NCBI GenBank assembly: GCA_030536315.1
Contig: JAUNQF010000008.1
Span: 1 to 46,303, forward strand
From: Coriobacteriia bacterium
GTDB taxonomy: Bacteria; Actinomycetota; Coriobacteriia; Coriobacteriales; Eggerthellaceae
DNA: 46,303 nucleotides
Reading direction: 5' to 3'
Shown: in pieces, positions 11,101 through 46,303 of the stretch
How the letters are laid out: each line of letters starts with the position of its first letter
Position numbering within the stretch: the first letter of the stretch is position 1
The notes under the pieces: model-generated
What the model was told of the DNA's origin: nothing
What the model saw: the letters and a program-made list of their open reading frames with translations, nothing else
Database searches by the model: none
Position numbers and translations under genes: made by a program

Positions 11101-14100
11101 TGAACAGCTTTACTGCTAATTAAAGCATAAGCTTTTTCTACTGTGATACCTCCATTTTCTACATTAAATGTACAAGTAACATTAGTATCGTTATATGAGA
11201 AGTCACCAGCATTTAATGTAAATTCATTAAATCCGGCATTTGTTTGCTTAACAGGTGAAATAACCTGACTATAACTTACCTTGCCTTGATTAAATAACAA
11301 ACTGTCTGAATATACAGAATACCCACTAACAGAATGTTCCTGTTTGTCATAAGTAACTTTAACATTGTCACAAACTACGGTAGCTGTAATGGCAGCTTTA
11401 AGCATTGACCAATCAATAGTAGTCTCACCGGAGCATTTACCTAAACCTTTGATAGTTGCAGTAATACTATCTGCGGCATCAATTGCAGAATAGCCTGAAA
11501 CAACTTCGTAGTCTTCGCCTTCGGTGTATACATATCCCGAAGCATCCTTAACAACAATCTTGGTATATTGCTCTCTTCCGTTGTAAGTTCTGTTTTCTGC
11601 AGTAACAGTGCACTCCTTAAGATCAATACCAGTAATTTGTAGATATCCATCATCCACATCATAAGTAAAGTCAATATTGTCTGGATCACTGATACTGAAA
11701 TTCATGTGATCTAATTTCATTGGATATGTTCCAACTTCAGTACCGTAAGCAGCTACACTGTCAGAAGTTGGATAAACCGTGAAGTTATAAGTTGTTACAG
11801 AAGGTGTATAGGTAGCCTCCCACCCAGAAACACTTTGTTGAACTCCATTATATGAATATGATGCATGCTTGCCTTTAATATCAGCATGTAACTTAGCCTT
11901 TGCAATACTCCAAGAAAAGTCTCTAGATTCTGTGAAGTTACGCGACCCACTTACAGTTAATGTGTAATCACCTGCATTGGTAGCCTTGGAACCATATAAA
12001 TAGTAATCTGTATTTTCTGCAAGTGTTATGCCATTATATTTCACAACAACATTAGGTCCTTGAACAGAACTTGTATATATAAACTCAGTTGGGCTTACTG
12101 TAATGTTTGCATTCTTAACAGAAATTGGTTTAATCTCTAAGCAACCATCAGCAATAACATTAAACTTTACATTTACACTTTCATCGCCATAATAGAAATC
12201 GCCAACTTGCAACCCCATATAGTATTTATTAGCATTAGTTCCAACAACATTAGCCTTGCTTGGGTTATTAAGCTTAACCAAGCCTTCGCTATAAACTTCC
12301 AATGGAGTTTCATCATGCAAAACAGAAGTATAGCCTGCAACATATTTTTCAGTTCCATCGTAGTCAAATGAAGCAGAATTTCCAGTTATGTCTACTTCAA
12401 TAAAGGCTTTATTAATAACCCACGGCAATGTAACAGTTCCAGTGTAGTTTCCTTCGGTGTTTGAAGGAGTAACACTTAAAGCATAATTTCCAGCAGCAGT
12501 TGCAAACGAAGTCCCACTTACAACAAATGAATCATTGTCCAAAGTCTTTACGCCATCAACAATCTTTAAGGTTGGGCTTTGCGAAGATCCATTGTAAGTA
12601 AACTCGTTAGGTGTAAGTGTGATTTGAAGTTCGCTTAAATCCTTCGGATTAATCTTTATGAAACCATTTGTAACATCAAATATAGGTGTAATGTTTTTAT
12701 CTACATAATGAAATACTGAAGAATCCAGTCTCATAGGATACTTTCCGGCGTAACTCGCAGTCACTGTATCCTTGCCTTCGTCAACTGTTAACTTGTTCAT
12801 GTCAATATACGGACGAAGCTTATTAACAGTGCAGTTATAACCCGAAACTGTTTGCTCTTCTCCGTTGTAAGTTCTTTCGTCACTATTTCCAACAATTGTA
12901 AACGTTACTTTAGCAGGGACAATCTTCCAATATACAGGTCTAATTTGGCCAGAATAATTTCCCTGCCCCTCGATAATTGCAGTGTAAGTATTAACTTCCA
13001 CACCAGAACCACCAGTAATCTTATAATCTCTGTCAGTTAAATAGGTACCTGTAGCTTCGTCGCCATTTCTAATAATGAATGTTGGTCCTTGGTTTTGACC
13101 ATTGTATTCAAGCTCTTCTGGCTCAGCCTTAATAAGCATACTGTCTTCAAGCTCTTTAGGTTGAATTTCTAAACGGCCGTCTTCAACCTTAATTTCATAA
13201 GGGTCAGTACCATAGTCATAATAGAAATCACTGGGCTTTAATCCCATCCAATATGTACCAGCATTTGTACCAGTAACTGTTAGCTTGTAAGCACATTCTG
13301 GTTTAACATGGAAATTTTCTGGCTTAAAGAAGTCTGGCTTAGATGAAGATACTTCATATCCGGATTCAGATTGTTCATAACCAGTGTAGTACTTCTTCAA
13401 ACTATCATTAGTTCTGTGGCCGGTTACTGTAATTATCTGAAGCTCATCAATTGTAAGAACAACATAGTATTCCAAAATATAATTGCTTTGGTCAACATCG
13501 CCTCAATCTATTACAGAAGTAAACTCTTTATTTAGTTCGTCGTATTTGCCCTTTTCTCCAGAAACAGTTTCAAGCTTAATTGAGTTTATTTCTTCACCTT
13601 CGGCTAATCCATCTACCTCATAAGATGGCGAAGTCTTATCAACATTTACCCAGTGAACAAATTTTTCATGTGTTGCTTCTTCTGGATCATAATATTTTGA
13701 ATCGTTAACATTAATTGTAAGAACTTTGGCTTGAATAACAACATAACCAGGTGCCAAATTCCAAATTACATTAATGTTAGGATCATCATAACTTCAGTTA
13801 GCGGTATCTCCAAAGTCAACCTCAGAACCGTCTTCCTTAATAATTTTCATAGTGTGTGTTCCTACCGAACTGCCTTGAGCAATGCACTTTTGAGGACTTG
13901 GAGAAATCTTCGATGCATCAAATTCTTCTTTTAGTGTGGCACTAGTTTTTGCATAATCAACACTAACTTTATATTCAGAAACAGTTTGAGTTTTACCTGT
14001 GTAATATAAAGGATTTTCTTCATCAGCACCCAATGTATTACCTGTAATATCAATATACATATCTGCTTTCTTTATAAGCAATATTGCTTTAGCAGAATGA

Positions 14101-17100
14101 ATAATATTGTAGTTTGCAGAAACATCTTTTGTAGCTTCTGTTTGTGCGTTAGCATTTGTAACAACAACCTTAGTAATGGTTACTTCTTGGCCAGGATCAT
14201 TTACTTCGGTTGCAGAATTGTTGGCCCAAGTAACAGGATTATTATCAGGGTCAAGAATATGACCTGGGCAAAGTTGATTCTTATCATATGTATATTCTGT
14301 TAGTTTATGCTCATCACCGTCGTAGGTAAACTCTGCACTCACAGGAGAAACAACTAAATCGCGCTTATTGATAGTAAGTTGAATATCATTTTGAGTAATT
14401 GCGAAGTTACTCAATAAAGTTCCCTCCGCAGGAATTGTTTCACAAATTAAATTTTTGCCATTTATTGTATAAGAACCCACATTGCTAGAGTTAGTTGTAA
14501 GTCTAATAGTAATGGTGTCTTTATCCGCACCGAAGGGTTGCTCAACAATTTCCTTAACGAAAACTTCACCACTGTAAGTTTCAACATACTCATCATGTGA
14601 AATAGTTAATGGACATTTTGCAATTGATCAAACAATATTAGTTACGGTGCCAGAATAATTACCTATACCTGTAATTGATGCAGAATACTTATCCGAAGCA
14701 TCTTTACCAGTGTTTCCAGTGATTGTATAATCTTCCGCTCTAAGTGTAAGCTCATCTGCATCGGCTGGTTTGTATTTAACAACAAAATCTTTTGTTTGAG
14801 TGCTACCGTTATAAATAAGATCTTCGACCGGAGTAACAGTCAATGTTCCATCTTTAGTAATGTCGGCTGGAGTGATATTTAAAATACCGCCTTCAAACTC
14901 TCATGTTACATGAACATTTGTATCGCCGTCCAGATAAGCAAAATTTTCCTGAACACTTTCTGGTAATGATTCCGAAGTTCCAATATCTGTTCTAGAAGCA
15001 GAAATCTCTGCTGAAGTTGGTTTAACCTTGCCTTCGGTTTGAAGACCTTGAGGGTTGGAAACAGCAATTAAGTCGTAACCATCGATACTTCTCTCAGTTC
15101 CATTATATTTATACGAAGCCGAATGCCCCACAACCTTTAACGAAAGACTTGCAGGTGTAATTTTCCAGCCATATTGTGCTGTCTTCGAAGTTGAGTAGTT
15201 TGAGCCTTCCTGGCCAGTAACTTTCAAAGTATAATCTTGAGCATCTTTTCCAGTATCGGAATTCTCAACTATAACGTAATCTCTATCTTTAACTAGAGTC
15301 TTTCCGTTTTCTCCAAAGCGTGTATCAACAACACTAACCCTTGTAGTTTGGATTTGCGCGTTATAAACTAAGTCGGTTGCAGTAACTTCGATATCAGAAC
15401 TATCAAGTTCGTAAGGATTGATAACAATTTGTGAATCTTTCCCGTAATTTATATTGTAATTGTTAAGATTCGTTCCTTCATTAGGAGTAATAGCTACCTG
15501 AATGCTTGTATCGCCTGAACCAGAATTATGATAATAAGTCTTGGCGTCGGCACCGAGCGTTGTGGCTGTAGCGGTTGCTAGGCCTTCGTCGCCAATCCAG
15601 CCAGCACCTTCATAATTAAAACAAGATTTAATATCATGGGTTTTTACTTGGCCATCATAATCATCACTAAATTCAAAAGCTTTCGCATTTATATTAACTT
15701 TCTTGATTTCAAAACGAACAGTATGTGTAGTGCTCTTGTCTGCTTCGATATTCCATCTATACCAAGGTTTTAGAGTAACGGTTGAATAATAAACGCCGGC
15801 ATCTGTAGCCTTAAAATTATCATCTATGGTCATACATCCGGAATCATAATTAACACCTTGCTGAGCAGTACCATCATAGAATAAGTCATCTACAGCGGTT
15901 GGATAATCAACACCAGTGTAATCAACTTTAATATTCGAAGTAGATTTGCCATAAATTCCTTCTTTAACGGTACTACTCTTTTGAATAGTTCCATTTGCTT
16001 GAACATTATTTATGACAAATCCAGCTTCAACATTTTCTCCTAATACTTTATATGTGCCTAAGTCTATAGGCTCAGATACCTCGCCAGCAAGCAAAATACC
16101 ATGATCTGGCTCTCCATCTTTATAAATAATTGCTTTATTTCCAGTTAGGCCTAACAAATCAGACGTAATAACTGTTTCGTAAACATTTACATTAGAATTG
16201 TTTCTTATTACTGCGGAATACTTAATTTCATCATTAATGTGAACAGGTATCGTAGCTGGATCTTGAGGTACAGCCGTGATTTCTACAACAATATCTTTTC
16301 TAATGTCTTCTGTAGGTATATAAATTTCTTCTTCATTCGAATTACACTCTCCACCTCAGTAGGGACTTTCTTCAGGAGTATTATTGTAATAAGCTGTAGA
16401 AGTAAATCATAGACTTAACTTACCAAAAGCAATATCTTCAGATGCGACAGTATATTCAAATTTCTTAGTTATAGTTTCACTAATATCTAAGAGACCCTTG
16501 TCCATTTTTAAGTCATCTCTCTCACCCCAAGCAGAATAATATGAAAAACCAAGAAGATCTCCTGGTGAGTATCATTGGGTTGCTCTAACAGGAACGGAGC
16601 TATTGTTTGTAATTTCTACAGTAAAAAGAATTTTTTCACCCAAGGAAACTTTATGCCCCTCAGGAACATCCGAAGTAACGTGTAGATTTAAGTCCATGAC
16701 AGGTATTGGCCATAAATTTACACCATAATGAAATACGCCAGCACTAGTAAAAGAATATATGTGACCAGTGGAAATCTTTTGGTCATCAGGGTCTAGCATA
16801 TTTAAATACTGATATTCATTAGTATTTGTAAGAACATAATGAACATTGATTGATGATTTCCAGCTATCTTCTGTAAAACTTAAATAACTATTTGCAGGAT
16901 TCTCTGTGTCTACATAAGCCCTTTCTTGAGAATTTTTTGTGCTAATAAGTTTTAAATTAAGACTTTCAATTTTTTCTCCAGCATCATTTTCTCAATGTCC
17001 ATTTTCATCAGACATGAAATTAATATTAGCTTCTTGAATATTAAGAACAATATATCCTGTTATTATTTTAAAGTTTGTGCCATGAGGCGGAGTGTCGTAT

Positions 17101-20100
17101 TGAACGCCCAAATATTCAGGATTACTTCCTTCTACTGGATCCACATTAACGTCATCAAGCTTAGTAACATAAATATTAATTTTCACACCATAAATCTTTT
17201 CTTCTGGAGATGGTTCAATATCTGTAAGCTCAACAATTCTGTCATCACTTATAGTACTATTTGCAGTAAAAGAATTTCCTGAGATGGTTCCTACACCATC
17301 GTATTGAAATTCTGCAACTGGAGAATCTGCATATGTAATTACTGGATTAGGAGCTATACATGCTGGAGGATCAGCTTCTGGGTCAGTTAAAGCATTTAAC
17401 AAGCTAACTGATTCGCCAGGGCTTACTTTAAAGCTGGTAGGCTCAACACTTTGCTGTAATGGCAAGATAGAAACAAAACCAACAACCTGCCCTATAGAAT
17501 ATTTATGTAATAAATCTCCTTCGAGGCTAAAATCACTAGCTTTGTAAGAAACAATATTATTAACACCAACAAATTTAGAATCGCAGTAAACAATAGCGCC
17601 TTCTTCCATCTTTACTGTTACAGAATTAACATCTTCGCCAACAAGTCCATCAATAATATGCGCTTCTTGCGCAACGGCTTCTGTTGTTCCATCATAATGT
17701 TTTTCAATAGTAGCTATTTCTACAGTAACTTCACTACCCTTAATACAATATTCATTACATTCAATGGTGTATGTTTTTGATTTATCGACAACTATTTCAC
17801 CATTAACGACTTGAACGTCATAAAATGAAATACGCGCTTTGTATCAACCTGGATCAACTGGAACAAAGTCTATTGGTTCTCATGACTCTTTCTTGTTAGA
17901 CTGAGATTGTCTATGAGAACCAGTAGTGCTTTTCATATACTGAATATCTGTAGCTGGAACAGCAAATGTATGATTTATAAACTCATAATAGTTTACGATC
18001 TCGACAGGGTGTTCTTCACCATCATAAATAATTGGGTCTTTATACCATTCGCCTTGGCGTCCCACGCTTTGAATTGTGGCTGGAAGTTTATCATTGCCAT
18101 ACTTACACTTTGAGAAAGTGTATGTGCCGTCTGCATAATTTCGTTGCACAAAACCCACATCGCACTTTAAAGAAATTGTATCATCAGGACCATCATATTG
18201 TGGAAGCTCTGGATATAACGAATATGTAAAGTTATGCTCATGCGGAACAATCCACAGTTCAAATGAGCCTAGGGCATTATCTACCTTCGTATTAATTAAA
18301 AGTTCATACGATAACCTTCCTACAACTTCATCCAAAACAAAACATTTAACGCTTGGATCAGTTAAATCTTTACTACCTGGAGTCAAATTTAGCATTGAAG
18401 CGCCATAACCTTCAGAAATATCAATATCAGTATTCTTTGCATAGTTAACACCAATTAAACTACGAGTATCTAATGGTTTATTAGGATCGATATGAACATA
18501 TCCTTTTGTGTTGTCTTGTAGTTGTAGAGCAAGGTTGTCTTCATACACTTCGTTATATTCACGAGACATATTATTTGTAACATTCATTTTGCCTGAAAGA
18601 TATAAATCACAGGAGTTAAAGTTTGTACTTCCGTAGCCAGTATAAACGTTAATTCCGCCACCGTAGTTATAGCAAACACTTTTGTCAGTAATGGTATCAT
18701 GCTTTAAACCACTCATATTGTTTTGAACAGTGCAGCTATCCATATAACAAGTAGTGCCATGGAACAAGAATATAGCACCAGCACGATAATTAGATGTGTT
18801 GTCATAAAAATTAGAGCTATTAATATTTACAACAGGAGATTTATTCTTAGAAAAAGTTGCAAGTGCACCGCCACCTCATGGACTGTAATAACCCGATGTT
18901 GATGTACTTTCTCCAATTTGCTTATTATTCTTGAATTCACAATAATTAATATTAGCGGTACCGGCATAACATTCTGTATTCATCATACCTATAAGAACGG
19001 CACCACCACCACCCATTGATACATTACCGGTAAAATAAACTGCGGATAAATTACATTTTGGGTTTTTTGTGAGAGAGCCGCTTCGAATTGCTCCACCACC
19101 GCTGCCAGCCGGATAAGTCCACTTATGAGTCATGGAAGAGTCTCCACGATACTTATTTTCATTACCAACAAAATTGACTGCATAAGCATCTAATGTGCCC
19201 TCGTTATAAATAGCAGAATAATTAGCGCCAGTTATCACACCGCCGTCCACATAATAATCAGTTGTATTTCCGCTTGTATCTAAAACTCATTTACCATCAG
19301 AATTTGGATTAAAGTAATGCCTGCAGTACTCTTCGCCAAACTTACAATCAAAAATTTCTAGACTGCCTTTATTTTGAATAAATAAATGAGTTGGAACAGA
19401 TTCATTATCTACTTCATTTCCTTCCCAATATAAGGCATAGCCATTAAGATCAAGATGCAAGGATTCTGAAGAGGTGATAGTGGCAGTAGCATTGATTCCT
19501 ATATCACTATCCAAATAATAATATCCATTTGTTGGAAGTTTATGAGTAGCTGAACTGAAAGTTAGTTTAGTGTATGTTTGACCTTCATGTACATGTTGAC
19601 GTTCTCGCTCTGTTGTAAGTTGATATGTTTGTTCAGAAAATACATTCTTTTTTGTAAATGATGCCGTATATTCAGTCAGACCAGGTTCTGCAGAAGTAGC
19701 TCTTTTTATTACGTTTTCAGTGACTGAATGATCATCCATTGTGCATAACTCAGTAACATGAACAGATATCCCTGCAGCAAGAACCTCACACATTCCAAAA
19801 CATGTAACATTTTCTGGGTCACTAAGATCTCAGATATAAGAAGGAATTTCTGCTATAAGGGTTAAGTTTTCAGTTATAGTAAATTCACGTTCATAAGAAA
19901 CGGTAGGGGCTGCTTCGGTATGAAACCAAATAACACCTTGCATTGTTTCTAATTTAACCTTGTCCCCAGAAACAAAATTATATTTACCATCAGCGTCAGG
20001 TAAAACCTCAACATAAAATAGAAGAATATCTTGAAATAAGGGGATGCCCCTAAATACTTTAACATTGTTTTGAATAGTTTCTGTTTCAGGATGGGAATTA

Positions 20101-21704
20101 AGAGTAAGTGCAACTTTTTGCCCAGGATCAGCTTCAGCTTCAATTGTTAAAGTAAGTTGCACGATATCACGAACATTATATTTAACATACATTTCTGAGT
20201 TTTTATATTTTTTCCCAGGATCTTGGATGTTTCTAACATTAAGTTTAATAATGCCATCTGAAGAAAAACAAGGAATGACACACTCAATTTGCTTTCCGCC
20301 AGCCTGGAACGTAATTTCATCTGTCACATAAAAATCTTGCCAGAGTACAGTAACACCCAAATTACCCGTATCGGCACCTGCTCCTCTGTTTACAACTACA
20401 TTAATCTTATGACACAAGTCGTAATAAGAAATATCTCCTATATCATATGTAGACCCGTCATCTGGAATTATTGGCAAATTGTGTTCGCTTTGTCCGAAAA
20501 TTATTGTATTACCAGTTTTTTCAGAATATATTTGTAAGCCTTTAAGCTGGCCACTTGAAACGCTTTCTGATTCAAATTCAAAGTTTCCTTTATGGTCGTC
20601 TCCTGCAGAAACGCTAATATCTTTTTGAGTAAATATTTGACCGCTAGAATCTTGATAAGCAATGTTAATAATGTCGTCTGAGCAAATATTGTTTAAATTT
20701 AGCTTAAATTTGCCTGTGTATCCTTCGGTTTTAATGTTGTTAATTTTAATTCCACCATATTTGTAATAATCGCTTTTTCCTGAATTGTATGGGCGTGAAT
20801 AAATATAATATTCAGCATCTTTTTCAAAGAAACCGTCTCCATTGGTAAATGTAACCGTTTTGTAATTTGTAGAATTTAACGTAAACTCTTGAATATAATT
20901 TTTCGAATAAGTGTCGCCTGTTGCTGCTTTTTTAACAATACCAACAACAGCATACCTTTGACTGTTACTTGTGTATACACTTGCAACGTTTAATGAAATG
21001 CTTCTTAGATTTTGTTGAGGAATTATTTTTATATAGTTATTAAAAATTGTTCCGTGTGTATTTTTAGAGCCGCCATCAGATTTAAGCATGTGTTGCTTAT
21101 TCATTACGTATCCATTAGAATCGATGGTAGTGCTTCCTCCATCAAGAGTTGAATAATTAGCACTATAAGGACCAACAAAAGTTATACGCGCAGATTTGTT
21201 TGTAGCAAAATAATCTTCGGTATTGAGTGTTGAGCTAGAGCTAGTATTTAAAGTTGTCTTTGAACCAAAATAAGCACTAAAATCCCATTCATAAGGTCCA
21301 CATTGCTCATCTTTTGCATCGTTTAAAGAATGAATGTTTTCATCATTTGTTTCTTCGTCAGAAGAATCGGATTCGAGGACTGGGCCTGCAACTTCGGGTT
21401 GGTCGGGCGTTTCGGGGTCGACTTCGGAGTCGTCGGATTCTTCGCCACCGCCACCTGGATCTGGCGATTCTGGATCAGGATCCGTTGCGCCTTCTTCGGT
21501 GGTTTGAGCTGCTTCGGTGTCATTAGCCCAGGCAGTAATGGTTTTCGCGGCATCGGCCGGCCATAGCAAAAAGACCAATAAAAAAGCAACGATTGCCGAA
21601 ACAACACGTTGCCAGATTGGCATTTTGCGAAGCGTTGCAGACGCCCCCCCCCATGAGGTTTTTCCGAGTTTCTTTCCTAAATTCAAATTCTTCAACGATT
21701 TCAT
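2169..21704 (-). CDS. Giant cell-surface adhesin-like protein with about 50 MBG/YDG-type repeats (6,511 residues, 21 UGA-Trp codons)
   Basis: One frame of 6,512 codons, ATG at 21702-21704 to TAA at 2169-2171. Under the standard code it breaks into 18 long pieces, but all share one frame and every break is TGA. Layout: charged N-region and signal peptide (hydrophobic near residues 32-52); acidic Asp/Glu/Pro linker to about 130; beta-rich region; a Gly-Gly-Ala-Ile-rich segment (about 700-1070) resembling a right-handed beta-helix; then about 5,000 residues of MBG/YDG-like repeats of 75-80 residues with YNG/YDG, GNYTG and W-x-I-x-KA signatures. It ends with VPGQTGDST, a hydrophobic helix and RRPKK, a degenerate sortase-type anchor. 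Trp in the repeat signature is UGG in some copies and UGA in others. Probably secreted and wall-attached; ligand unknown. Confidence 0.9.
21644..21652 (-). repeat. Run of nine G in the coding strand near the 5' end of the giant gene
   Basis: Nine consecutive C on the plus strand, so G9 in the coding strand, encode Trp-Gly-Gly-Ala at about residues 18-21, before the signal-peptide core. With nine G the frame joins ATG to the rest of the protein. Gain or loss of one G would send translation into a short dead-end frame. Such tracts are typical slipped-strand phase-variation switches. Confidence 0.8.
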
Positions 21705-27894: not shown

Positions 27895-29424
27895 TTATTC
27901 GAAGTCGAGGCCGATGATAACCAAAATGTCAGTGTCAAAATCATAATCGCCGTCATTTTGTTGGACACGCCCGCAACCGAGTTTGTCCGCGATAGCTTCG
28001 GCGGCATCTTCCTTGTCATCGTCCTTATATATAATTAGTGTTTTCGAATAATTGTCTTTGTCCGCGTTGCCAGTTGTGGCCGTGAATCCAAGCGCGATGA
28101 TTTTCAACGAAGCCGAAGCCGCAGCTCCATCAACTCCCGATCCATTTTTAACGCTGACCGTTCCTTCCCAGTCGCCAGATCCAGAAGTGCTCATAACCGT
28201 GCCTGTAGCAGGGTCGATGTATGGCTCTTCGTTAGGTGGAAGACCGGCATCCATGCGCTTCATCATCGCTTTCCACTCAACTTCGTCAAGCTCTTCGTAT
28301 CAACCACCATTTTTATAAACGCCTTGAGTTGGAGTCATTGCTGTGTAAACATCCTTCGCGGGGTTTAGGCCCTTCATCAACTGGGCAAGACCAATCATGT
28401 CGTTGATGGCAAGGTCAGTTTTTATGTAGCCAGACATATCCATAACGGTTTGCGCAATTGTCATGATGTCCGAATCAAGAGCCTTTTGCGCAATTGCCGA
28501 AAGAAGCATGCGCTGGTTTGCCGCGCGGAATTTATCGCCGTCACCATAGGCGTCATAAGCGTGGCGCGACCTGGCTAAAATCAAAGCTTCTTGGCCATTA
28601 AGATGCTGCGGACCAGCTGGAACGTAGCCGCCAGCTTCGGGGTCATTTATCTCAATTGGCACATTTACATCAACTCCGCCAAGATCATTTACCGCAGCTG
28701 TGAAACCGTCGAAGTTAATTTCGGCGTAATGGTTAATTGGAACGCCGGCAAGTTTTGACACATTTTTGATGACAAGCTCCGGCCCGCCAATCGAATGCGA
28801 AGCATTAATTTTTTGAACGCCATATTCACCACCCATATCCATTTCGATGTCGCGGTGAATTGACATGAGCGTAACTTTTTTCTCGTTAGCAGCAACGCGA
28901 GCAAGAATCATGCTGTCGGAACGGTAATCCGAATCATCGCCGCCGCTTTCGGCTTTGCGAACGTCCGAAGAATCAACACCCATGAGCACCATGTAAAAAG
29001 GCTTGTCCAAGCTGGTTGGAGTGAGTCCGATGTTGCCCATTCCAGCGTTTAAATTACAACTTATAATGCCGAAGGCAATCGCTCCAGCAGCAACCAAAGC
29101 CCCAAGAATCGAACACACAATTATTATGATCTTCTTTTTGCGCTTTTTCTTATCCTGAGCCTTGCGCGCCGCAGCGTATTTTTGTTGTTGCCCACGTCGC
29201 GAATAATCGCTGAGCGATTCCTGAGGCTTAAAGCCCAGGTCGGCTCCTCGTCTTCGGCTCTGCTTTTTAGCATTTGGATTGCCAGCGTATCCAACAGTGT
29301 TTGTTGGGTCAATTTGTCCGGTGCGCCCGGTTGGGCTGGCTTCGTAAGTTCGGCGGTTAAGTTCACTGAATCCAGTGGTTGGTTTTTTGCGTCCGCCCGC
29401 GCTTTTTCTGTTAAAAATTCCCAT
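27895..29424 (-). CDS. LytR-CpsA-Psr (LCP) family wall-polymer ligase with LytR C-terminal domain
   Basis: Membrane enzyme of the LCP family, which transfers lipid-linked wall polymers to peptidoglycan. 509 residues: a basic, glutamine-rich cytoplasmic tail (1-97), one membrane helix (about 98-122), and an extracytoplasmic LCP domain with MGVDSSD, RSDSMILARV, MSIHRD, DLGGVDVNVP and ALILARSRHAYD. A LytR_C-type domain (about 405-509) begins WEGTVSVKNGSG. One TGA (complement of 28300-28302, residue 375) reads as Trp and joins the LCP part to the C-terminal part in one frame. The start ATG lies 10 nt after TATAAT with no Shine-Dalgarno site. It is a paralogue of the LCP half of the fusion protein at 43.7-45.7 kb. 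Confidence 0.95.
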
Positions 29425-34663: not shown

Positions 34664-34699
34664 ATGAAAGTGATATAGTAAGCCTCCCTTTCACGATTG
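34664..34699 (+). promoter_or_regulatory. Promoter region of dnaA
   Basis: A TATAGT -10 box (34674-34679) is followed 6 nt later by CCCTTTCA (34686-34693), as at the neighbouring ATPase gene. TGAAAG just upstream (34665-34670) forms an inverted pair with CTTTCA around the -10. A TGTGGAAAA (complement TTTTCCACA), a DnaA-box variant, begins at about 34699 before the start codon and could mediate autoregulation. Confidence 0.6.
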
Positions 34700-34708
34700 T
34701 GGAAAACT

Positions 34709-36181
34709 ATGGAACATGATTTTTCTGACATAAACAAAACTTGAGGTACGATAGTTAAAAAGGTCGAAGAACTTGATGTTGGCGGCGCTCAAAAAGTTGA
34801 CGCTTTTTTGCCGCAATTAAAGCCGCAAGCAATTTCAAACGACTTTTTGATGCTAACTACAAACAATTCTTTCATAAAGTTTTGGGTTGAAAGCCACATT
34901 CTTGGTTTGATTAAGCAGGCGCTCTCTTCGCTTTACGGGACAGAATTTAATGTTCAAATTGAAGTTGACCAAACCGAAGACGCCGACACCGAATACACTT
35001 CGGAAAGCTACATCGCTGCAAACTTGGTATCTTCAAACACCAAGCTTGACACTGATCCTTCGAATGTCTTTACTTCTCAAAACTCCGAAGAAGAGGCCTC
35101 ACCCGCAACTCCAAACTTCGATATGAATTTGACCAACTTATTAACTTTTGAGAACTTTGTAATTGGAAGTTCAAACAATATGGCTTTTCAAATGGCTCGT
35201 TCTGTTGCAGAAACTCCTGGTAAGCCTAATTTAAATCCGCTTTTCATTTATGGTAAAAGTGGCGTTGGGAAAACTCATCTTCTTCACGCAATTAAAAATT
35301 ACATCAATATAAATAATCCTGCAATTAACGTTGTTTATATCGATGCAACTGCTTTTGTAAATGAATACACTGCTGCTTCGGCCGCGCACGATGTTGATAA
35401 ATCAAGCTTTATTAATTTTAATAAGAAATATGAAAGCGCCCAAGTTTTATTGATCGACGATCTTCAACTTTTGCAAGATAAGGTTGCAACGTTAAACACT
35501 TTCTTCACTTTATTTAATAATATTACAAATCTTGGAAGGCAAATTGTAATTTCGGCAGACCGTGCTCCTAAAAATATTGATGTTGATGAGCGTTATCAAT
35601 CTCGTTTTAATAATGGTATGTCTTGCGAGATCACTTCTCCCGAAGTCGAGGTAAAACTTGGAATCATTAAAAGTTACATTGATGATTTTAAGAAAGAAGA
35701 ACCGGAAGTTGAAAATTACATATCAGATGACGTTGTTAATTTTATTGCACAAAATTCGTCTTCGAATATTCGTGAATTGAAGAGTGCTGTTACAAAAGTT
35801 TTATATGAAATTAAATATAATCATGAAAATATTCCGGTTGATAAAGTAAAAGAAATTTTGGAAGAGCACTTTAGTAAAAATATAAAGAAAAGAGTTACTG
35901 TAGAAAATATTCAAAAAGTTTGTGAAGAATATTATGGTGTAAGTCATAACGCCCTTGTTGGAAAGAAGAAGGATAGAAACATTGCTTTTGCTCGTCAAAT
36001 ATCAATGTATCTTTGTTATAAAATGCTTGAAATTTCTGTTACTGCAATTGGAAAATCTTTTAATAGAGATCATTCAACTGTACTTCATTCAATTAAAGTT
36101 ATTGAAGATAAGTTAAAAAATAATATAGAAATTTCTGGAGAAATTGAATTATTAGAAAAAAGAGTTTTAGAAAGGGATTAA
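34709..36181 (+). CDS. dnaA: Chromosomal replication initiator DnaA
   Basis: Initiator ATPase that binds DnaA boxes and opens oriC. 490 residues from ATG 34709. An in-frame TGA at 34742-34744 (codon 12, read as Trp in INKTWGTI) would cut the N-terminus under the standard code. Domain III has Walker A GKSGVGKTHLLHAI, Walker B VLLIDDLQLL and sensor I SADRAPKNIDVDERYQSRF. Domain IV ends with the DNA-binding signature FNRDHSTVLHSIK. The linker (domain II) is acidic. The insert around AAHDVDKSSFINF resembles Coriobacteriia DnaA, which supports that placement. Codon use becomes strikingly AT-rich in the last third. The gene has no clear Shine-Dalgarno site. Confidence 0.98.
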
Positions 36182-38314: not shown

Positions 38315-39103
38315 ATGAACCCATGAGATTTATTTAAAGATGGAATTTTCATGTTGATAGAGTGGGTCAATACCCTCGTTGGTGATTGGGGCCTCGCTAT
38401 TATTATTGTTACAATCATTTTTAGAGGCATCATGCTGCCTATCATGCATAAGCAAACCAAATCATCTTATATGATGAAGAAAATGAACCCAGAGATGAAT
38501 AGGATTAAAGAGCTTTATGCAGATGATCAAAAAAGACAAAGCGAAGAACTTCAAAAAGTTTACGCCGAAGCGAAGTTCAACCCAATTTCTGGTTGTATTC
38601 CTATGTTTATTCAAATGCCTATTTTTATTGCGCTCTTCCAGGCACTTCGTGAAGTTCCAGACCGCATTGGTGATGTTTCAAACTACTGTTTTTTCAATCT
38701 TGTTCCTAACCTTGTTTGTTCGCCTCAAGATATGTGGAATGAGATTGATGACATTGGAATTTTGCCAATTATTCCATACATTATTTTGATTGTAATTTTT
38801 GCTGGTGCAACATTTTTACCAATGATTCTTCAACAGCAAGGTGGTGATCCTAAGCAAAGAAAGCAAACCTTGATTATGTCTGGAGTTATGTCGGTAGTTA
38901 TGTTGTTTGTTGGGTGGAGCTCTCCAGCAGGCGTTTTGCTGTTCTGGGGAACTTCGTCAATCCTAGCTTTGATCCAGCAAAGAGTTAGTATGAAAATTCT
39001 CGAAAACAAAGATAAACAAATCGAGGAAGAAAAAGAATATCAGCCAGTTAAAGTTGATGTTGTTCGCAAGGAAAAAACCAAGCGTCCTCGAAAGAAAAAA
39101 TAA
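38315..39103 (+). CDS. yidC: Membrane protein insertase YidC (short Gram-positive form)
   Basis: Inserts proteins into the cytoplasmic membrane with or without SecYEG. 262 residues. The start ATG (38315) gives MNPWDLFKDGIFMLIEWVN, in which the Trp at codon 4 is TGA (38324-38326). Without recoding, the first membrane segment would be clipped. The ribosome site is GAGCAGG. About five membrane segments are visible, and the hydrophilic-groove Arg lies in IIFRGIMLP. The C-terminal tail is strongly basic (KRPRKKK), typical for ribosome contact. It lacks the large periplasmic domain of Gram-negative YidC and any lipobox. Confidence 0.97.
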
Positions 39104-39118
39104 TATGAGGTGATTGAT

Positions 39119-39688
39119 ATGGTTGATGAAGAAAAATTAGAGCAAGAAAAGATCGAAGAATCTCAAAAAGAAATGGCCGAAGAACAGGAAGCCATTGCTA
39201 AACGTGAGATTCCGCAGTTAAGCGACGAGGAACTTGATAATGTTGCGGACACTGCTATTGACTATATTCAAGAGATAGTTAGCAACTTCAACCTTGGTGA
39301 GATTACAATTAACGAATATGAAGGCGCTGATAAAGAGCTAATTTTGGACATTAACGGCAACGATTTAGCTATTTTGATTGGTAAGCATGGTGCAACGCTT
39401 GATTCAATTCAGCATATTGTTGGCGTTTTGTCTTATAAAAAACTTGGTTTTTACTACCCTGTTGTTATCGATGTCGAGGGCTATAAGAGCAGGCAGCGCA
39501 TTAAATTAGAGAATCTTGCGAAGAATTTAGCCAACCGTGTTGCTCGCAATAAAAAGCCATATTCAATGCATCCAATGAACCCATTCAAAAGACGCATTGT
39601 TCATACATATTTGAGCTCGGATGATCGTGTTGAGACTCACTCCGAAGGCGAAGGTCGCAACAGACACCTTGTAATTACACCTAAATAA
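39119..39688 (+). CDS. jag: KH/R3H RNA-binding protein Jag (KhpB-like)
   Basis: RNA-binding protein of the Jag/KhpB family, linked in other Gram-positives to cell elongation and division control. The ATG at 39119 is chosen because GAGGTG precedes it; a GTG at 39110 in the same frame is the alternative. 189 residues: an acidic coiled N-terminal part (about 1-50) replaces the usual Jag-N domain, then comes a KH domain with GKHGATLDSIQ and an R3H domain with MNPFKRRIVH. It follows yidC by 15 nt, its usual place. Confidence 0.95.
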   Translation: MVDEEKLEQEKIEESQKEMAEEQEAIAKREIPQLSDEELDNVADTAIDYIQEIVSNFNLGEITINEYEGADKELILDINGNDLAILIGKHGATLDSIQHIVGVLSYKKLGFYYPVVIDVEGYKSRQRIKLENLAKNLANRVARNKKPYSMHPMNPFKRRIVHTYLSSDDRVETHSEGEGRNRHLVITPK

Positions 39689-39694
39689 GGCAAT

Positions 39695-40360
39695 ATGGAA
39701 ATCACAAAGGAACAGAATGCATTGTTAGAAAAGCATCTGGACCTTGTGCTTTTTAAAAATCAGCAACTAAATCTAACTGCAATTAAAGATAAAGACGAAG
39801 CAAAGGTCTTGCATCTTGAAGACTCTCTTGCTGGGCTTGAAGAATTAAACTCTGTTGAAGGAGAGTTTGTTGATATGGGGACGGGGGCAGGTTTTCCTGG
39901 CATCCCATTAAGTATTGTTAGCGGAAAGAAGGCTACTTTAGTTGAAACTGTTGGCAAAAAAACTGATTGTCTAAAATCCTTTATTAATGAGCTTAATTTA
40001 GAAGCACAGGTTTCTGTCAGTAATAAAAGAATTGAAGAACTTGCTGTTGAGAGGCCAAATTCTTACGGAGCTGCAACTGCAAGAGCATTATCTTCGTTGT
40101 CATCGTTACTTGAGCTTGCTGCTCCCCTTTTAGTTGTTAACGGGCTTTTAATTTGCTATAAAGGTAATAAGGTCGGAGAAGAGTTAAACACCGCTTTAAA
40201 TATTAGTGAGAAGTTAGGCTTTGAGTTTGTTTCTAATAGAAAATACGTGTTAAGTGATAGAACCGAGCATAGAATTGTTGTTTTTAAGAAAGTTAAAGAA
40301 CCTGAAGTCAAACTACCAAGAAAGCTTGGTTTTGCTCAGAAAAAGCCTTTTACTAACTAA
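39695..40360 (+). CDS. rsmG: 16S rRNA (guanine-N7) methyltransferase RsmG
   Basis: Methylates G527 of 16S rRNA using S-adenosylmethionine. 221 residues. SAM-binding motif I is DMGTGAGFPGIPLSI; other family pieces are NLTAIKDKDEAKVLHLEDS and ATARALSSLSSLLELAAPLL. It starts 6 nt after jag. A perfect parS site begins 2 nt after its stop codon. Loss of this enzyme gives low-level streptomycin resistance in other bacteria. Confidence 0.97.
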   Translation: MEITKEQNALLEKHLDLVLFKNQQLNLTAIKDKDEAKVLHLEDSLAGLEELNSVEGEFVDMGTGAGFPGIPLSIVSGKKATLVETVGKKTDCLKSFINELNLEAQVSVSNKRIEELAVERPNSYGAATARALSSLSSLLELAAPLLVVNGLLICYKGNKVGEELNTALNISEKLGFEFVSNRKYVLSDRTEHRIVVFKKVKEPEVKLPRKLGFAQKKPFTN

Positions 40361-40362
40361 TA

Positions 40363-40378
40363 TGTTTCACGTGAAACA
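40363..40378. promoter_or_regulatory. parS: parS centromere site 1
   Basis: Perfect 16-bp palindrome TGTTTCACGTGAAACA, the universal ParB binding site of bacterial chromosomes. It lies between rsmG and parA, about 6.7 kb from the origin. Confidence 0.98.
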
Positions 40379-40393
40379 TCTTTAAAATAATAG

Positions 40394-40423
40394 TTGAAAA
40401 ATAACTGTTTTGTATTATTATAC
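40394..40423 (+). promoter_or_regulatory. Putative promoter of parAB
   Basis: TTGAAA (40394-40399) is followed 18 nt later by TTATAC (40418-40423); a TATTAT at 40413-40418 is an alternative -10. It sits just after parS, so bound ParB could influence it. Confidence 0.5.
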
Positions 40424-40457
40424 CAAGTGTAAACGTAGCTTAAACGAAGGAGGATAT

Positions 40458-41486
40458 ATGGGTTTCTTTGACTCGTTCAAAAAGAAGAATCAGCCCGAAA
40501 CGTCTAATTACCAGCAAGAAGACAATAATGTTGAAGAACAAGATCAATATGATGCTGCTGTTACAAAACGTAAAGTTGTTGAAGATGAACCAAAGAAAGA
40601 AGTAGTAGAGTTTGAAGCTGAAAAGCCTATTGAACAGGATAAGCCTCAAGAACCAGAGCCTGTTGAAAAGCAAAAGCCAGTTGAAGCTTCTCTTCCAAAG
40701 GAATTTGCTAAACCATCTGGTGGACCCTCGAAGATATTAACTATTATTAATCAGAAGGGTGGCGTTGGTAAGTCGACAACAGCAATTAACCTTGCTGCAG
40801 CTTTAGGCGAAAATAAAAAACATGTGTTACTTGTTGATTTGGATCCGCAAGGGAATTCAACAAGCGGGCTTGGTATTGACAAAAGGAGCATAAAGCGTTG
40901 TATTTATGATGTCCTACTCAACGATGCAGGTATTGAGGATGTTGTAGTTAAGGACGCATATAAGAATGTTGATGTAGTTCCTGCCACAATTAATCTTGCA
41001 GGAGCAGAAGTTGAGCTTGTAACAGAGATAGCAAGGGAAAACAGGCTTAAAGAAGCTTTGGGTAAGGTAAAGGCTAATTATGATTACATATTTGTTGATT
41101 GTCCACCTTCCTTAGGCTTGTTAACTGTAAATGCTCTTGTTGCTGCAGATAAGCTATTTATTCCTATACAGACAGAGTTTTATGCACTTGAAGGAGTGAC
41201 AAAACTTCTTGATTCAATGAAACGTGTCAAAACTCGCCTAAATCCGAAGCTTGATATCTTCGGTGTTCTGTTAACAATGTTCGATGGACGCACTACATTG
41301 GCTAAACAAGTATCTGATGAGGTGCGCAAATACTTTAAAGACCTTGTTTTTGATACTAAAATACCAAGAACAGTAAAGATTTCCGAGGCTCCAAGCTTCG
41401 GCCAACCAATAACGCAATATGAACCATCATGTAAAGGTGCTATTGCATATAAAAATCTAGCAAAAGAGGTGATGAAACGTGGCTAA
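40458..41486 (+). CDS. parA: Chromosome-partitioning ATPase ParA/Soj with N-terminal extension
   Basis: ParA/MinD-type ATPase that moves ParB-parS complexes. 342 residues from ATG 40458, which follows AGGAGG; an ATG at 40410 has no ribosome site. The deviant Walker A box is NQKGGVGKSTTAINLA, followed by DLDPQGN and DCPPSLGLLTVNAL. About 85 residues precede the ATPase domain: MGFFDSFKKKN, an amphipathic-looking start, then an acidic Glu/Pro/Lys-rich linker. Most Soj proteins begin directly at the ATPase fold, so this tail is unusual and may tether the protein to the membrane or a partner. The end overlaps parB by 8 nt. Confidence 0.97.
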   Translation: MGFFDSFKKKNQPETSNYQQEDNNVEEQDQYDAAVTKRKVVEDEPKKEVVEFEAEKPIEQDKPQEPEPVEKQKPVEASLPKEFAKPSGGPSKILTIINQKGGVGKSTTAINLAAALGENKKHVLLVDLDPQGNSTSGLGIDKRSIKRCIYDVLLNDAGIEDVVVKDAYKNVDVVPATINLAGAEVELVTEIARENRLKEALGKVKANYDYIFVDCPPSLGLLTVNALVAADKLFIPIQTEFYALEGVTKLLDSMKRVKTRLNPKLDIFGVLLTMFDGRTTLAKQVSDEVRKYFKDLVFDTKIPRTVKISEAPSFGQPITQYEPSCKGAIAYKNLAKEVMKRG

Positions 41487-42489
41487 AAAAGGACTTGGAA
41501 GAGGGCTAAATTCCCTGTTAGGAGGAGACTCCTACGAAGAAGACATCAGGTATAACATTGATTCTGTAGATCAGGTTGATGATTATACTGATGAAATTGA
41601 AGGTTTTGATGGCGAAGTAAAAATTCGTGAAGCAGAACCTAAGAAAACTGTTAAAAAACCAGCTAAAAAGGCAGAAACTAAGAAAGCAAAGCCAGCTGGT
41701 CAAGGTGTTTTGGAAGTTTCAATTTCTCAAGTTGTTGCTAATCCTGATCAGCCAAGAAAGAACTTTAGCCAGCAAGAACTTGATGAACTTGCTGATTCAA
41801 TCAAAAGAAATGGTCTCTTGCAGCCAATTTTGGTTAGTGCAAAAGATGATAAATATGAAGTTATAGCTGGTGAAAGGCGTCTTCGTGCTTGCAAGATTGC
41901 TGGTCTTAAGAAAGTTCCAGTTATTGTTAAGCAAACAAGCAAGAATAAGAAGCTTGAGCTTGCTTTGATAGAGAACATCCAGCGTGAGGACCTAAATCCT
42001 ATGGAAGAGGCCTATAGTTATAAGAAAATCCTTGATACGCAGGGCATTTCTCATTCAGAACTTGCTTCGATAGTGTCAAAGGCCAGGTCAACGATAACAA
42101 ATTCACTTCGTCTATTAGAGCTTCCTGAAGATGCTCAAAAGCTTTTATATGAAAATAAGATTACAGCTGGTCATGCAAGGGCAATTCTTTCGGTTTCTAC
42201 ACAAATGGGTAAGGAAAAACTTTCAAAAAAGATTGTTGATGAGCATTTATCTGTTCGTGAAGCAGAAAGTCTTGCTAATTTATACAATGGCCAAAACACA
42301 AAAGCATTAACTACGGTGCGTCCTGCTGCTCCTAAATCATATAAAAAGGCAGCTAAACTATTAAGAGACCACCTTGGCAACAACGTTAGAGTTAAAAAAG
42401 CAAAAGGCAAGAATAAAATTGAAATTGAGTTTAGCGACGAGAGGGATTTAGAAAGAATCTTAGGCCTTATAGTTAACGATAAAAAATAA
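41479..42489 (+). CDS. parB: Chromosome-partitioning CTPase/clamp ParB (Spo0J)
   Basis: DNA-sliding CTPase clamp that loads at parS. 336 residues from a GTG start inside parA, with GAGGTG upstream. After an acidic then Lys/Ala-rich N-terminal region (about 75 residues, longer than usual) come the ParB domain NPDQPRKNFSQQELDELADS, the CTP-binding motif GERRLRA, the ENIQREDLNPMEEA motif, and the HTH around HSELASIVSKARSTITNSLR. A C-terminal dimerisation domain ends IEFSDERDLERIL. Two perfect parS sites flank the operon. Confidence 0.97.
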   Translation: MAKKGLGRGLNSLLGGDSYEEDIRYNIDSVDQVDDYTDEIEGFDGEVKIREAEPKKTVKKPAKKAETKKAKPAGQGVLEVSISQVVANPDQPRKNFSQQELDELADSIKRNGLLQPILVSAKDDKYEVIAGERRLRACKIAGLKKVPVIVKQTSKNKKLELALIENIQREDLNPMEEAYSYKKILDTQGISHSELASIVSKARSTITNSLRLLELPEDAQKLLYENKITAGHARAILSVSTQMGKEKLSKKIVDEHLSVREAESLANLYNGQNTKALTTVRPAAPKSYKKAAKLLRDHLGNNVRVKKAKGKNKIEIEFSDERDLERILGLIVNDKK

Positions 42490-42556: not shown

Positions 42557-43612
42557 CTAATTTAGATTATTTAGAAGCTGTCCACAAGCGGCATCTATAT
42601 CAGAACCGCGAGAAGCTCGTAGTGTGGCTTCGATACCTTTATTATTTAGATCTTTAATTCATTTATTAACTACAGCATTAGAGGAAGCTTTAAACTTCGA
42701 ACCGTTAACATCGTTGAATTTAATTAAGTTAATATGGCAAAGCATACCTTCGCAGAAATTAATTAAAGCATTTAGATCTTCTTGAGTGTCGTTTACGTTG
42801 TTGATTAAAAGATATTCAAACGTTGGGCGTCTATTTGTTTTTTCAATATAGTTTTTAATGCTGTCCTTAAGCTTGTTTAATGTGTAATTCTTAACGCCCG
42901 GCATTAATTGATTTCGTTTTTCTTGAATTGCGCAATGTAGAGATATTGCAAGTCCGTATTGTTTATCTACATTAGAAAACTTATCAATACCTGGAATAAT
43001 ACCGCACGTTGAAACAGTGATCTTTCGCGCTCCAATTCCAATTATTTTTGGATTGTTAATAATATCTAAAGCGTCTGTTAAGTTTTCGAAGTTAAGGAAA
43101 GGCTCACCTTGGCCCATGACAACAACATTAGAAACTTTCATTCCCAAATTATTTTGAATAAATAAAACTTGTTGAACAATCTCTCCGCAACTAAGGTTTC
43201 GAACAAATCCTTGTTGTCCTGTCGCACAAAATTCACAAGCCATAGGACAACCCGCTTGGCTTGAAATACAAACAGTTAATTTGTTAGAGCTTTCTTTTAA
43301 GGAAGGAATAGCAACACACTCAACAAAGACTGGTTTTTCGTTTTTGACGTGAGATTGCATTTCTAAAACGTATTTTTTTGTGCCATCAGACGATAATTGT
43401 GAAGAATGGAGCTGGGGCTTCGTAATGACAAAACTATCAGTAAGTTCAGAAATTAAATCTTTAGGTAAATTTGTCATTAACGAAAAATCATCGATCTCTC
43501 GCCCATAAACTCATTCTAAAATTTGCTCAAGCCTATAAGACGGCTGCTTGTTCTTCTCAAGAAAAGCACGCAAATCTTCAAACCGCAAATTATTAAACGA
43601 AACTTTATTCAT
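42557..43612 (-). CDS. rlmN: Dual-specificity 23S rRNA/tRNA methyltransferase RlmN
   Basis: Radical-SAM methyltransferase for A2503 of 23S rRNA and A37 of some tRNAs. 351 residues, ATG 43610-43612 to TAG 42557-42559. The radical-SAM cysteine motif is CPMACEFCATG; other marks are VVMGQGEPF, ITVSTCGI and the C-terminal LRASRGSDIDAACGQL. Two TGA codons (complement of 43511-43513 and 42659-42661) are Trp: the first in EQILEWVYGR near the N-terminus, the second before the C-terminal block. Under the standard code both ends would be lost. The start lies 8 nt after TATAAT with no ribosome site. It is head-on to replication and divergent from the Ddl-LCP gene. Confidence 0.96.
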
Positions 43613-43626: not shown

Positions 43627-43657
43627 CCTTAAATGGCAAAAATGAGAGATTTTTTGG

Positions 43658-43663
43658 TAAAAT
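43658..43663 (+). promoter_or_regulatory. Putative -10 box (TAAAAT) of the Ddl-LCP gene
   Basis: TAAAAT follows a T-run, 8 nt before an in-frame GTG at 43672 and 18 nt before the ATG at 43681, matching the leaderless layout of other genes here. Confidence 0.4.
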
Positions 43664-43671
43664 ATATGCCC

Positions 43672-45741
43672 GTGGCTGAGATGAAAAACATAGCCCTACT
43701 CTATGGCGGAACCAGTTCGGAGCGCGATATCTCCCTTCTTTCGGGGAAGAATGTTGGCGAAGCGCTTACATCCCGAGGTTACAACGTCACATATATTGAT
43801 CCAAAGCAAAACGAAGACATGGACAAGCTTCGCAATGAAAAGTTTGACATTGCTTATATTGCTTTGCATGGTAAAGGTGGCGAAGATGGGGCTATCCAGG
43901 CGGAACTTGAAAAACTTGGTATCCCTTATACTGGGTCTAAAGTTCAAGCCAGCAAAAACGCCATGAACAAAGCCGTTACTAAGGAAATTTTCAAGCGCGG
44001 AAAAGTTTCTTCGCCAAAATATTTTGTTGTTAACAAGCATCAAAAAACTGATCTTGAAAAGCAGATCAAAATTACCGGCGACGATGTTGTTGTTAAGGCT
44101 GCAAACGAGGGTAGTAGCATCGGACTTTATTTTGCAAAAGGCAAAGAAGAAATTGAAAAGGCCATTGAAAAGGCTAAGGATTTTGACGACACGATCATTG
44201 TTGAGCAGCGCATTTCTGGTAGAGAGTTTACTTGCGCTGTAATTGAATTTGACAGCGAAGACAAAGAACACCTTGGTGATAAGTTAACTTTCGACGGCAA
44301 CAACGCCGCGCTTCCTGTCATCGAGATTGTTCCGAAGAACGAGTTTTACGACTTCGCTTCTAAATATGACGAAGGCGGATCTGAACATATTTGTCCGGCT
44401 GAAATTGATGACGAGCTTGCTCAAAAGATTCAAAAACTTGCACTGAAGGCTCATAAAAGCCTCGAATGCAGCGGTTTTAGTAGAACTGATATATTGGTAA
44501 GTGACGAAGGTCAGGTCTACGCGCTCGAAACAAATACAATTCCAGGAATGACAAGCAAGAGTTTGGTTCCGGATGCAGCACGTGCTGTTGGGATTTCGTT
44601 TGAAGATTTGTGTGAACTTCTAATTAATAACGAACTTAAAAAGTCGGCTGGAGCTTCGCCGCTTGACCCTAATAATAGAGCGGCAAAATATGCAATTGCT
44701 CGCGAGGAAGCAAAAAAAGCCAAGAAAAAGAAGATAATTATTGCCGCAATTACTATTGGAATTTGTCTTTTGAGTATTTTTGGCGCGTGGCTTTTCAGCT
44801 TTTTGAATACCTCGTTTGAAGACAGTGATGAATTTAAGATTCGCGAAGAGCTGACCGAAAGCAACTTCAACGAGCCATTTTATATGCTCTTAATTGGTAC
44901 TGACACGCGAGAACACGGATCTTATAGCTTGGAGGACGGGCGTTCTGACAGCTGTATTTTGGTTCGCATCGACCCAATCAATTATATTGTTACGATGATC
45001 TCAATTCCTCGCGACACAAAAATTACTGATGATAGCGGAACGTATAAGTTTAATGCGGTTTATGCCGAAAGCGGAGTTAAAGGAACAATTAAGGCCGTAA
45101 AGAAGATGATGGGAGTAGATATTGCCCATTATGCAGAGGTTAGTTTCAATGGTTTGACCGACATGGTTGATGCGGTTGGCGGCGTTGAGGTTAATGTTCC
45201 TGAAGAAATTAATGACCCAAATTCGGGCGTTTTTGTTCCGGCTGGACCGCAAACTTTAAATGGTGAAGAAGCGCTATCGTTTTCTCGTTCACGAAGATTT
45301 GGCGATGGGGATTTTACAAGAACCGCTGATCAACGCGTGTTAATTGATGCGCTAATTCGCAAAGCATACAAGATGGGAGTCGGCGAAGTCCCGAACCTCC
45401 TTCGTGCAGCTAAAAATTTCGTTAAGACCGATCTTCGTTTGGGAGACATGATTGGTCTTGCGATGCAATTCTTAAACGCGGATAAAGAATTAACTTTGTA
45501 TTCGGCGATGGTTCCGTCATACACTTCTGGCGAAGGCGGAGTTTCCTACGTTATTACTGACAAGGATGCGCTTAAACGCATGATGAAGATGTGCGAAAAC
45601 GGCGAAAACGTTCTATATGTAGAGATCAATTCGGGCGCTTCGGTATGTTCGAGCAGAGACGCAACAAACCTCGAAGCCGAACGCCAGGCGTATTACCAAC
45701 AGCATCCCGATTCTCCTGGCAAAATCTCCAATTCATACTAA
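43672..45741 (+). CDS. Fusion: D-alanine-D-alanine ligase + membrane helix + LCP wall-polymer ligase domain
   Basis: One uninterrupted frame with no TGA. The frame opens at ATG 43633, but GTG 43672 (8 nt past a -10) or ATG 43681 (MKNIALLYGGTSSERDIS, the normal Ddl start) fit better. The first ~330 residues form a complete ATP-grasp D-Ala-D-Ala ligase: ALHGKGGEDGAIQ, KAANEGSSIG, DILVSDEGQVYALETNTIPG. A basic linker and one membrane helix (IIIAAITIGICLLSIFGAWL) follow. The rest is an LCP domain: MLLIGTDTREHG, GRSDSCILVRID, ISIPRDTK, DAVGGVEVNVP and [14 protein letters not shown]. The ligase half would be cytoplasmic and the LCP half outside, coupling precursor synthesis with wall-polymer attachment. 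The LCP half resembles the separate LCP protein at 27.9-29.4 kb. Confidence 0.93.
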   Translation: MAEMKNIALLYGGTSSERDISLLSGKNVGEALTSRGYNVTYIDPKQNEDMDKLRNEKFDIAYIALHGKGGEDGAIQAELEKLGIPYTGSKVQASKNAMNKAVTKEIFKRGKVSSPKYFVVNKHQKTDLEKQIKITGDDVVVKAANEGSSIGLYFAKGKEEIEKAIEKAKDFDDTIIVEQRISGREFTCAVIEFDSEDKEHLGDKLTFDGNNAALPVIEIVPKNEFYDFASKYDEGGSEHICPAEIDDELAQKIQKLALKAHKSLECSGFSRTDILVSDEGQVYALETNTIPGMTSKSLVPDAARAVGISFEDLCELLINNELKKSAGASPLDPNNRAAKYAIAREEAKKAKKKKIIIAAITIGICLLSIFGAWLFSFLNTSFEDSDEFKIREELTESNFNEPFYMLLIGTDTREHGSYSLEDGRSDSCILVRIDPINYIVTMISIPRDTKITDDSGTYKFNAVYAESGVKGTIKAVKKMMGVDIAHYAEVSFNGLTDMVDAVGGVEVNVPEEINDPNSGVFVPAGPQTLNGEEALSFSRSRRFGDGDFTRTADQRVLIDALIRKAYKMGVGEVPNLLRAAKNFVKTDLRLGDMIGLAMQFLNADKELTLYSAMVPSYTSGEGGVSYVITDKDALKRMMKMCENGENVLYVEINSGASVCSSRDATNLEAERQAYYQQHPDSPGKISNSY

Positions 45742-45801: not shown

Positions 45802-46303
45802 ATGGGTAAAGGTCTTAAAGGATTAATTCTTGGTGGCGCCGTTGGTGCTGCAATTGGAGTTTTATATGCACCACGAGCAGGTAAAAAGACTCGTGAAATG
45901 CTTGCAAAAAAGACAGACGCTCTTTGGGGCGAAGAAGCTCAAAAACAAGGAACAATTTTAGGCGAAGTTGCAAAAACAACTAAGACTGCTGTCGAAGCCG
46001 GACAAAACATTTTCAACGAAGCTCAAAAAGGCAAGTTTGGCGAGATCACTCGCGAAGCTACAGAGCGCGGTCAACAAATTTTCAATGAAACAAAAACTTA
46101 TGTAAATGATTTCACCGAAGAAAACGTTCGTCCTGTTTTTGCCGAAAAGAACGATGAACTTCGTAAAAAGATTGATGTTGCACGTGCAAAAATTGCCTCG
46201 CAAGTTTCTCAAAATGCGAAGACATCAGCGCCGGTTCGCAGCGTAACTCCTGCTACAAGGAAGGCTCCAGTAGCTAAACCTGCTGCTAAACCAGCTGCAA
46301 AAC
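45802..46303 (+). CDS. YtxH-family small membrane-associated protein (runs off the window)
   Basis: The ATG follows AAGGAGG by 5 nt. The N-terminus has a glycine-rich hydrophobic segment (GLILGGAVGAAIGVLYAPRA) and then GKKTREML, the YtxH/general-stress-protein pattern. The visible 167 residues continue as a helical, charged region and end in an Ala/Pro/Lys-rich low-complexity tail (PAAKPAAK) at the window edge. YtxH proteins of Gram-positives are stress-linked but of unknown function. The stop codon is not in the window. Confidence 0.85.
   Translation, partial: MGKGLKGLILGGAVGAAIGVLYAPRAGKKTREMLAKKTDALWGEEAQKQGTILGEVAKTTKTAVEAGQNIFNEAQKGKFGEITREATERGQQIFNETKTYVNDFTEENVRPVFAEKNDELRKKIDVARAKIASQVSQNAKTSAPVRSVTPATRKAPVAKPAAKPAAK

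Follow-up and report, generated by a model that had tools for sequence, protein, structure and literature searches.

Near the end of the window, which is the whole 46,303-nucleotide stretch of DNA analysed here, a single gene joins a D-Ala-D-Ala ligase (Ddl) to a LytR-CpsA-Psr (LCP) domain. For comparison we used G014, the closest relative available, which belongs to the same family and to a different genus. The features referred to below are the following.

43633-45741, + strand: ddl-lcp fusion gene, ATG at 43633, TAA at 45739-45741, 702 codons
43681-43683, + strand: Met17, possible true start, aligned with the start of the G014 Ddl
43684-44643, + strand: D-Ala-D-Ala ligase (ATP-grasp), residues about 18-337, from Pfam, NCBIfam and alignments
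44638-44733, + strand: linker, residues 336-367, ending KKAKKKK, from alignment with the tail of the G014 LCP protein
44734-44802, + strand: single predicted transmembrane helix, residues about 368-390, strongly hydrophobic
44941-45366, + strand: LCP domain, Pfam core residues 437-578, from Pfam, alignments and Foldseek
39110-42489, + strand: upstream block of jag-like gene, rsmG, parA and parB, gene order as in G014
42557-43612, - strand: rlmN, divergent upstream neighbour with two UGA codons read as Trp, placed likewise in G014
45802-46303, + strand: YtxH-like gene, downstream neighbour running off the window, also downstream of lcp in G014
27895-29424, - strand: stand-alone second LCP gene, 509 aa with UGA as Trp, orthologue of G014 C7:106839-108332
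34697-36181, 38315-39103 and 1-1549: dnaA, yidC and leuS, window genes with UGA as Trp
Contig C5 (L173), between 11752-12141 and 12258-15041: gap where prfB sits in G014

The frame from 43633 to 45741 has no internal stop under either table 11 or table 4, and it contains no UGA codon. Its 702-residue product begins with a complete Ddl, which is followed by a lysine-rich linker, then by a single membrane helix and lastly by a complete LCP domain. A preliminary description had claimed one uninterrupted frame holding an ATP-grasp ligase, a membrane helix and an LCP domain, with the key motifs kept in both halves. This is borne out, with exact coordinates and with Pfam and NCBIfam matches above their cut-offs, and both the DdlB positions and the LCP motifs align with those of solved structures. 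Since the G014 Ddl begins at the position of Met17, the ligase may start there (43681).

In the Ddl half, the Pfam domains Dala_Dala_lig_N and Dala_Dala_lig_C cover residues about 64-331 above the curated cut-offs (PF07478, 170.5 bits with a cut-off of 24; PF01820, 73 with a cut-off of 34.6). The NCBIfam D-Ala-D-Ala ligase models NF002378 (349.9 bits, cut-off 243) and TIGR01205 (294.2 bits, cut-off 245.65) agree, and family models match both ATP-grasp lobes. We take the catalytic and binding residues of E. coli DdlB to be Glu15, Lys97, Lys144, Ser150, Lys215-Tyr216, Arg255, Asp257, Glu270, Asn272 and Ser281. In an alignment to the Yersinia Ddl 4zqi their counterparts are all kept, as E30, K113, K155, S161, K244-Y245, R284, D286, E299, N301 and S310. 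The omega-loop Lys-Tyr pair is thus present (K244-Y245), and Tyr245 presumably fits D-Ala-D-Ala, not D-Ala-D-Lac. A 14-residue insertion at residues about 212-225 (about 44266-44307) is absent in G014. Searches with Pfam and NCBIfam find no Mur ligase domain in the fused protein, unlike the MurC-Ddl type.

The LCP half matches PF03816 at 132.2 bits (cut-off 24.6) and TIGR00350 at 129.1 bits (cut-off 62.3). When aligned to the TagV and EF0465 structures, the family motifs GRSD, PRD, RxR and DFxRxxxQ are found as GRSD, IPRD, SRSRR and GDFTRTADQR. Ahead of this domain lies one hydrophobic helix (368-390) with a basic stretch before it, from which we infer the sidedness of the protein. The part that would lie on the cytoplasmic side of the helix is a complete enzyme, whereas a short tail is typical, though not required, of the LCP family. 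Structure prediction is consistent with these assignments at middling confidence. The best Foldseek matches of the predicted model include LCP crystal structures of the TagV/TagT type (TagV 6uf3 for the LCP part, E 7e-22, TMt 0.80) as well as Ddl structures; the AlphaFold2 model was built from a shallow alignment, and with a mean pLDDT of 59 and parts of Ddl poor it is too weak for detail.

The gene order in G014 is jag, rsmG, parA, parB, rlmN (minus strand), ddl, lcp, a flavoprotein-like gene and ytxH; the flavoprotein-like gene between lcp and ytxH is absent from the window. In G014 ddl and lcp are two genes, 16 bp apart and in different frames, with the TGA stop of ddl at L043:10296-10298 and the ATG of lcp at L043:10315. 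In the alignment the linker of the fused protein corresponds to the cytoplasmic tail of the G014 LCP protein, which it resembles (P-x-DP ... KKK), and the C-terminus of Ddl matches to within a few residues of the linker. The fused LCP half and the tandem lcp of G014 are reciprocal best matches. Identity to G014 is 55.4% for the Ddl half and 54.8% for the LCP half. Since the 124 gene pairs compared have a median identity of 55.5%, neither half appears relaxed or decaying. From codon 327 to codon 379, between the two domains, there is no ATG, GTG or TTG, and the other two frames of this region are full of stops. No true fusion other than ddl-lcp is present among 155 gene pairs compared with G014. 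Another candidate in the same genome, at C9:11104-12483, looks like a MATE-type transporter that is split in G014.

Searches of related genomes for the same domain order did not find a second fusion. No fused frame was seen among the matches listed for 99 relatives searched with the protein. Two relatives had been flagged for a long Ddl frame: G080 (713) is read as carrying an ordinary 294-aa Ddl, and G023 (811) has two genes divided by UGA. In searches across the family (138 genomes), the order (395) and the phylum (396), restricted to strong matches, the genome studied here was alone in matching the whole query; a divergent fusion split into two weak matches could escape the thresholds of these searches. 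Among 29 relatives with flanking DNA examined, only G014 and G023 have lcp immediately after ddl, and the G023 pair has a different LCP (34% identity) and a different gene neighbourhood. At L044 2825-5233 of G023, lcp lies in the frame of ddl and only one UGA intervenes; read-through of this UGA would yield a Ddl-LCP fusion. A named Eggerthellaceae Ddl groups with those of the family to which the window belongs, and the organism is therefore probably a member of Eggerthellaceae or close to it. We found no published Ddl-LCP fusion in the literature.

The genome that carries the fusion appears to read UGA as tryptophan. A comparison with G014 over 155 filtered gene pairs (six contigs, about 465 kb) shows Trp opposite UGA at 80 of 102 conserved positions and opposite UGG at 141 of 174. 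Translation with table 4 makes window genes whole, including DnaA, YidC (NPWDLF), a Y-family polymerase, RlmN, a Sua5-like protein, LeuS and the stand-alone LCP protein, and none of the main genes of the window ends in UGA. RF2 is not found in this genome, which has only RF1, and it is present in all 10 relatives tested. On contig C5, the gene found after prfB in G014 comes immediately after secA, and prfB is thus cleanly missing. Readings of UGA as Cys or Sec were rejected, the 13 UGA-to-Cys matches being reduced to 2 by the removal of antisense shadow frames. The tRNA-Trp(CCA) has, by inspection, a normal five-pair anticodon stem; neither a tRNA-Trp(UCA) nor a SelB match over the cut-off was found in the incomplete assembly. 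The sole UCA tRNA found is a tRNA-Sec gene at L075 1498-1593 (contig C4), present despite the reading of UGA as Trp. Reassignment of UGA in this group is not mentioned in the large surveys PMC8629427 and PMC13092985, nor did we find it in further literature. Elsewhere in the window, the minus-strand region 2169-21704 forms a single frame of 6511 residues when UGA is read as Trp, with 21 UGA codons, many repeats and a C-terminal hydrophobic anchor. Under table 11 this frame falls into many pieces; it likely encodes a giant surface protein.

The assembly of this genome comprises 1.09 Mb in 31 contigs and is estimated to be 75% complete. No separate Ddl is found in it: the two other PF07478 matches, both on contig C9, represent the two parts of CarB. 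A separate ddl could be encoded in the portion that the assembly lacks. MurF, the consumer of D-Ala-D-Ala, is present in the genome, and because no other Ddl is found, the fused gene is probably the cell's Ddl. There are three LCP genes, namely the fused one, the stand-alone gene on the minus strand at 27895-29424 and one on contig C23. The stand-alone protein, earlier given as 374 aa, is corrected to 509 aa, as its frame reads through one UGA. It is the reciprocal best match of the other lcp of G014. The preliminary description had also taken this second gene as a hint that the fused LCP has a special role. This does not follow, since G014, which is without the fusion, has orthologues of both LCP genes; the second LCP gene therefore predates the fusion and is silent on any special role.

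Taken together, we suggest that this is probably a genuine, lineage-specific fusion of tandem ddl and lcp genes, and that its product is a bifunctional, single-pass N-in/C-out membrane protein whose two reactions are most likely independent. Points that weigh against this reading are its reliance on one incomplete draft genome, the 14-residue insertion in the Ddl half and the middling confidence of the structure model. The ancestor would have had ddl followed directly by lcp, an arrangement retained in G014. The two frames would then have been joined when the stop codon of ddl, the short spacer and about 20 initial codons of lcp were lost. In the resulting protein, the N-terminal Ddl would be cytoplasmic and supply MurF with D-Ala-D-Ala; outside, the C-terminal LCP domain would transfer a lipid-linked polymer to peptidoglycan. 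The physical effects of the fusion would be equal dosage of the two enzymes and a Ddl anchored at the membrane.

A link between the fusion and the altered code is conceivable, and we consider it unlikely. By this route, the ancestral ddl would have ended in UGA, and the fusion would have been driven by a genome-wide loss of UGA termination, with RF2 lost and UGA reassigned to Trp: Ddl would have run on toward the adjacent lcp until an in-frame join was fixed. In line with this, UGA is the stop codon of ddl in G014 as well as in G023. Eight comparable genes have a G014 partner that ends in UGA. Seven of them terminate here with UAA or UAG at the corresponding position, and ddl, the remaining one, is fused. 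Fusion thus affects one of eight UGA-ended genes of G014 and none of about 109 that end in UAA or UAG (one likely shadow frame omitted), an enrichment that is weak, suggestive and not significant, and G014 is not the ancestor. The fusion junction itself contains no UGA. Direct read-through of a junction like that of G014 was rejected as the route, since the frames differ and a TAA stands eight codons beyond the UGA.

A different possibility concerns function. The fusion could have evolved because the tether delivers D-Ala-D-Ala where wall polymers are attached, or because one side regulates the other. Both domains are intact and as conserved as the median gene, and in Chlamydia MurC-Ddl the ligase needs the fused structure for its activity (PMC4803751), so that Ddl fusions can matter. 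However, Ddl and LCP have no intermediate in common and would act on opposite sides of the membrane, and therefore there is nothing to channel between them; moreover, the fusion is seen in a single lineage and in none of the relatives searched. We thus regard functional coupling as improbable, and direct coupling across the membrane is unsupported. Of the earlier proposal that the protein puts precursor synthesis and polymer attachment on opposite sides, the placement is supported, with a topology presumed from the helix and the basic stretch, and both halves look intact; the mechanistic tie between the two processes does not. We give just as little weight to the idea that the polypeptide is cut, or that two proteins are made, leaving a soluble Ddl and a separate LCP protein in the cell. 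The linker is predicted at low confidence and could be accessible to a protease, but a usual internal start codon upstream of the helix is absent, which speaks against separate synthesis. Weakest is an error in sequencing or assembly, by a lost stop or a chimeric join near 44.7 kb: the fusion is known from one draft assembly, the single genome available for its genus, but the unbroken gene order shared with G014 on both sides disfavours a chimeric join, and for two ordinary genes to have been misread as one, a stop as well as a start must have been lost, as the linker has no usual start and the other frames are closed, hence at least two separate errors, so that an assembly join or a single indel is a very unlikely source of the fused frame.

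Though both families are known, Ddl-LCP is a new combination of them, found in one genome. In Chlamydia, Ddl forms the C-terminal part of a MurC-Ddl protein. The two cases are alike in that Ddl is fused with another peptidoglycan-related protein in one polypeptide. They differ in that MurC is cytoplasmic and shares the compartment of Ddl, whereas here Ddl is N-terminal and its partner is an extracellular, membrane-anchored LCP domain. Chlamydia MurC-Ddl has ligase activity, according to McCoy and Maurelli (2005) as cited in PMC4803751 and PMC12283558. The MurB/C fusion of Verrucomicrobium, which complements both E. coli mutants (PMC4803751), is likewise a lineage-restricted fusion of two wall-synthesis genes, but both of its domains are cytoplasmic and catalyse consecutive steps of one pathway. 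With TagT/TagU/TagV, Cps2A and LcpA the fused protein shares the LCP domain and the single-helix layout. The cytoplasmic tails of LCP proteins have 6-19 residues in eight of those analysed and 121-123 in CE2746 of C. efficiens (PMC2632651); in contrast to the short tails of known LCP enzymes, the fused protein has a whole enzyme of more than 330 residues. The tandem genes of G014, and those of G023 with a different lcp, place the same two kinds of gene side by side. They encode separate proteins, set apart by a 16-bp spacer and a change of frame in G014 and by one UGA in the same frame in G023.

If made as one protein, the product of this gene would be a membrane-anchored Ddl, of which we found no report in the literature. 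It would then offer a natural test of how a soluble precursor enzyme fares once it is tethered both to the membrane and to a wall-polymer ligase. It is also a possible footprint of stop-codon reassignment, located where two relatives stop with UGA. Should the UGA route be true, unlikely as we consider it, gene fusion would be a by-product of codon reassignment.
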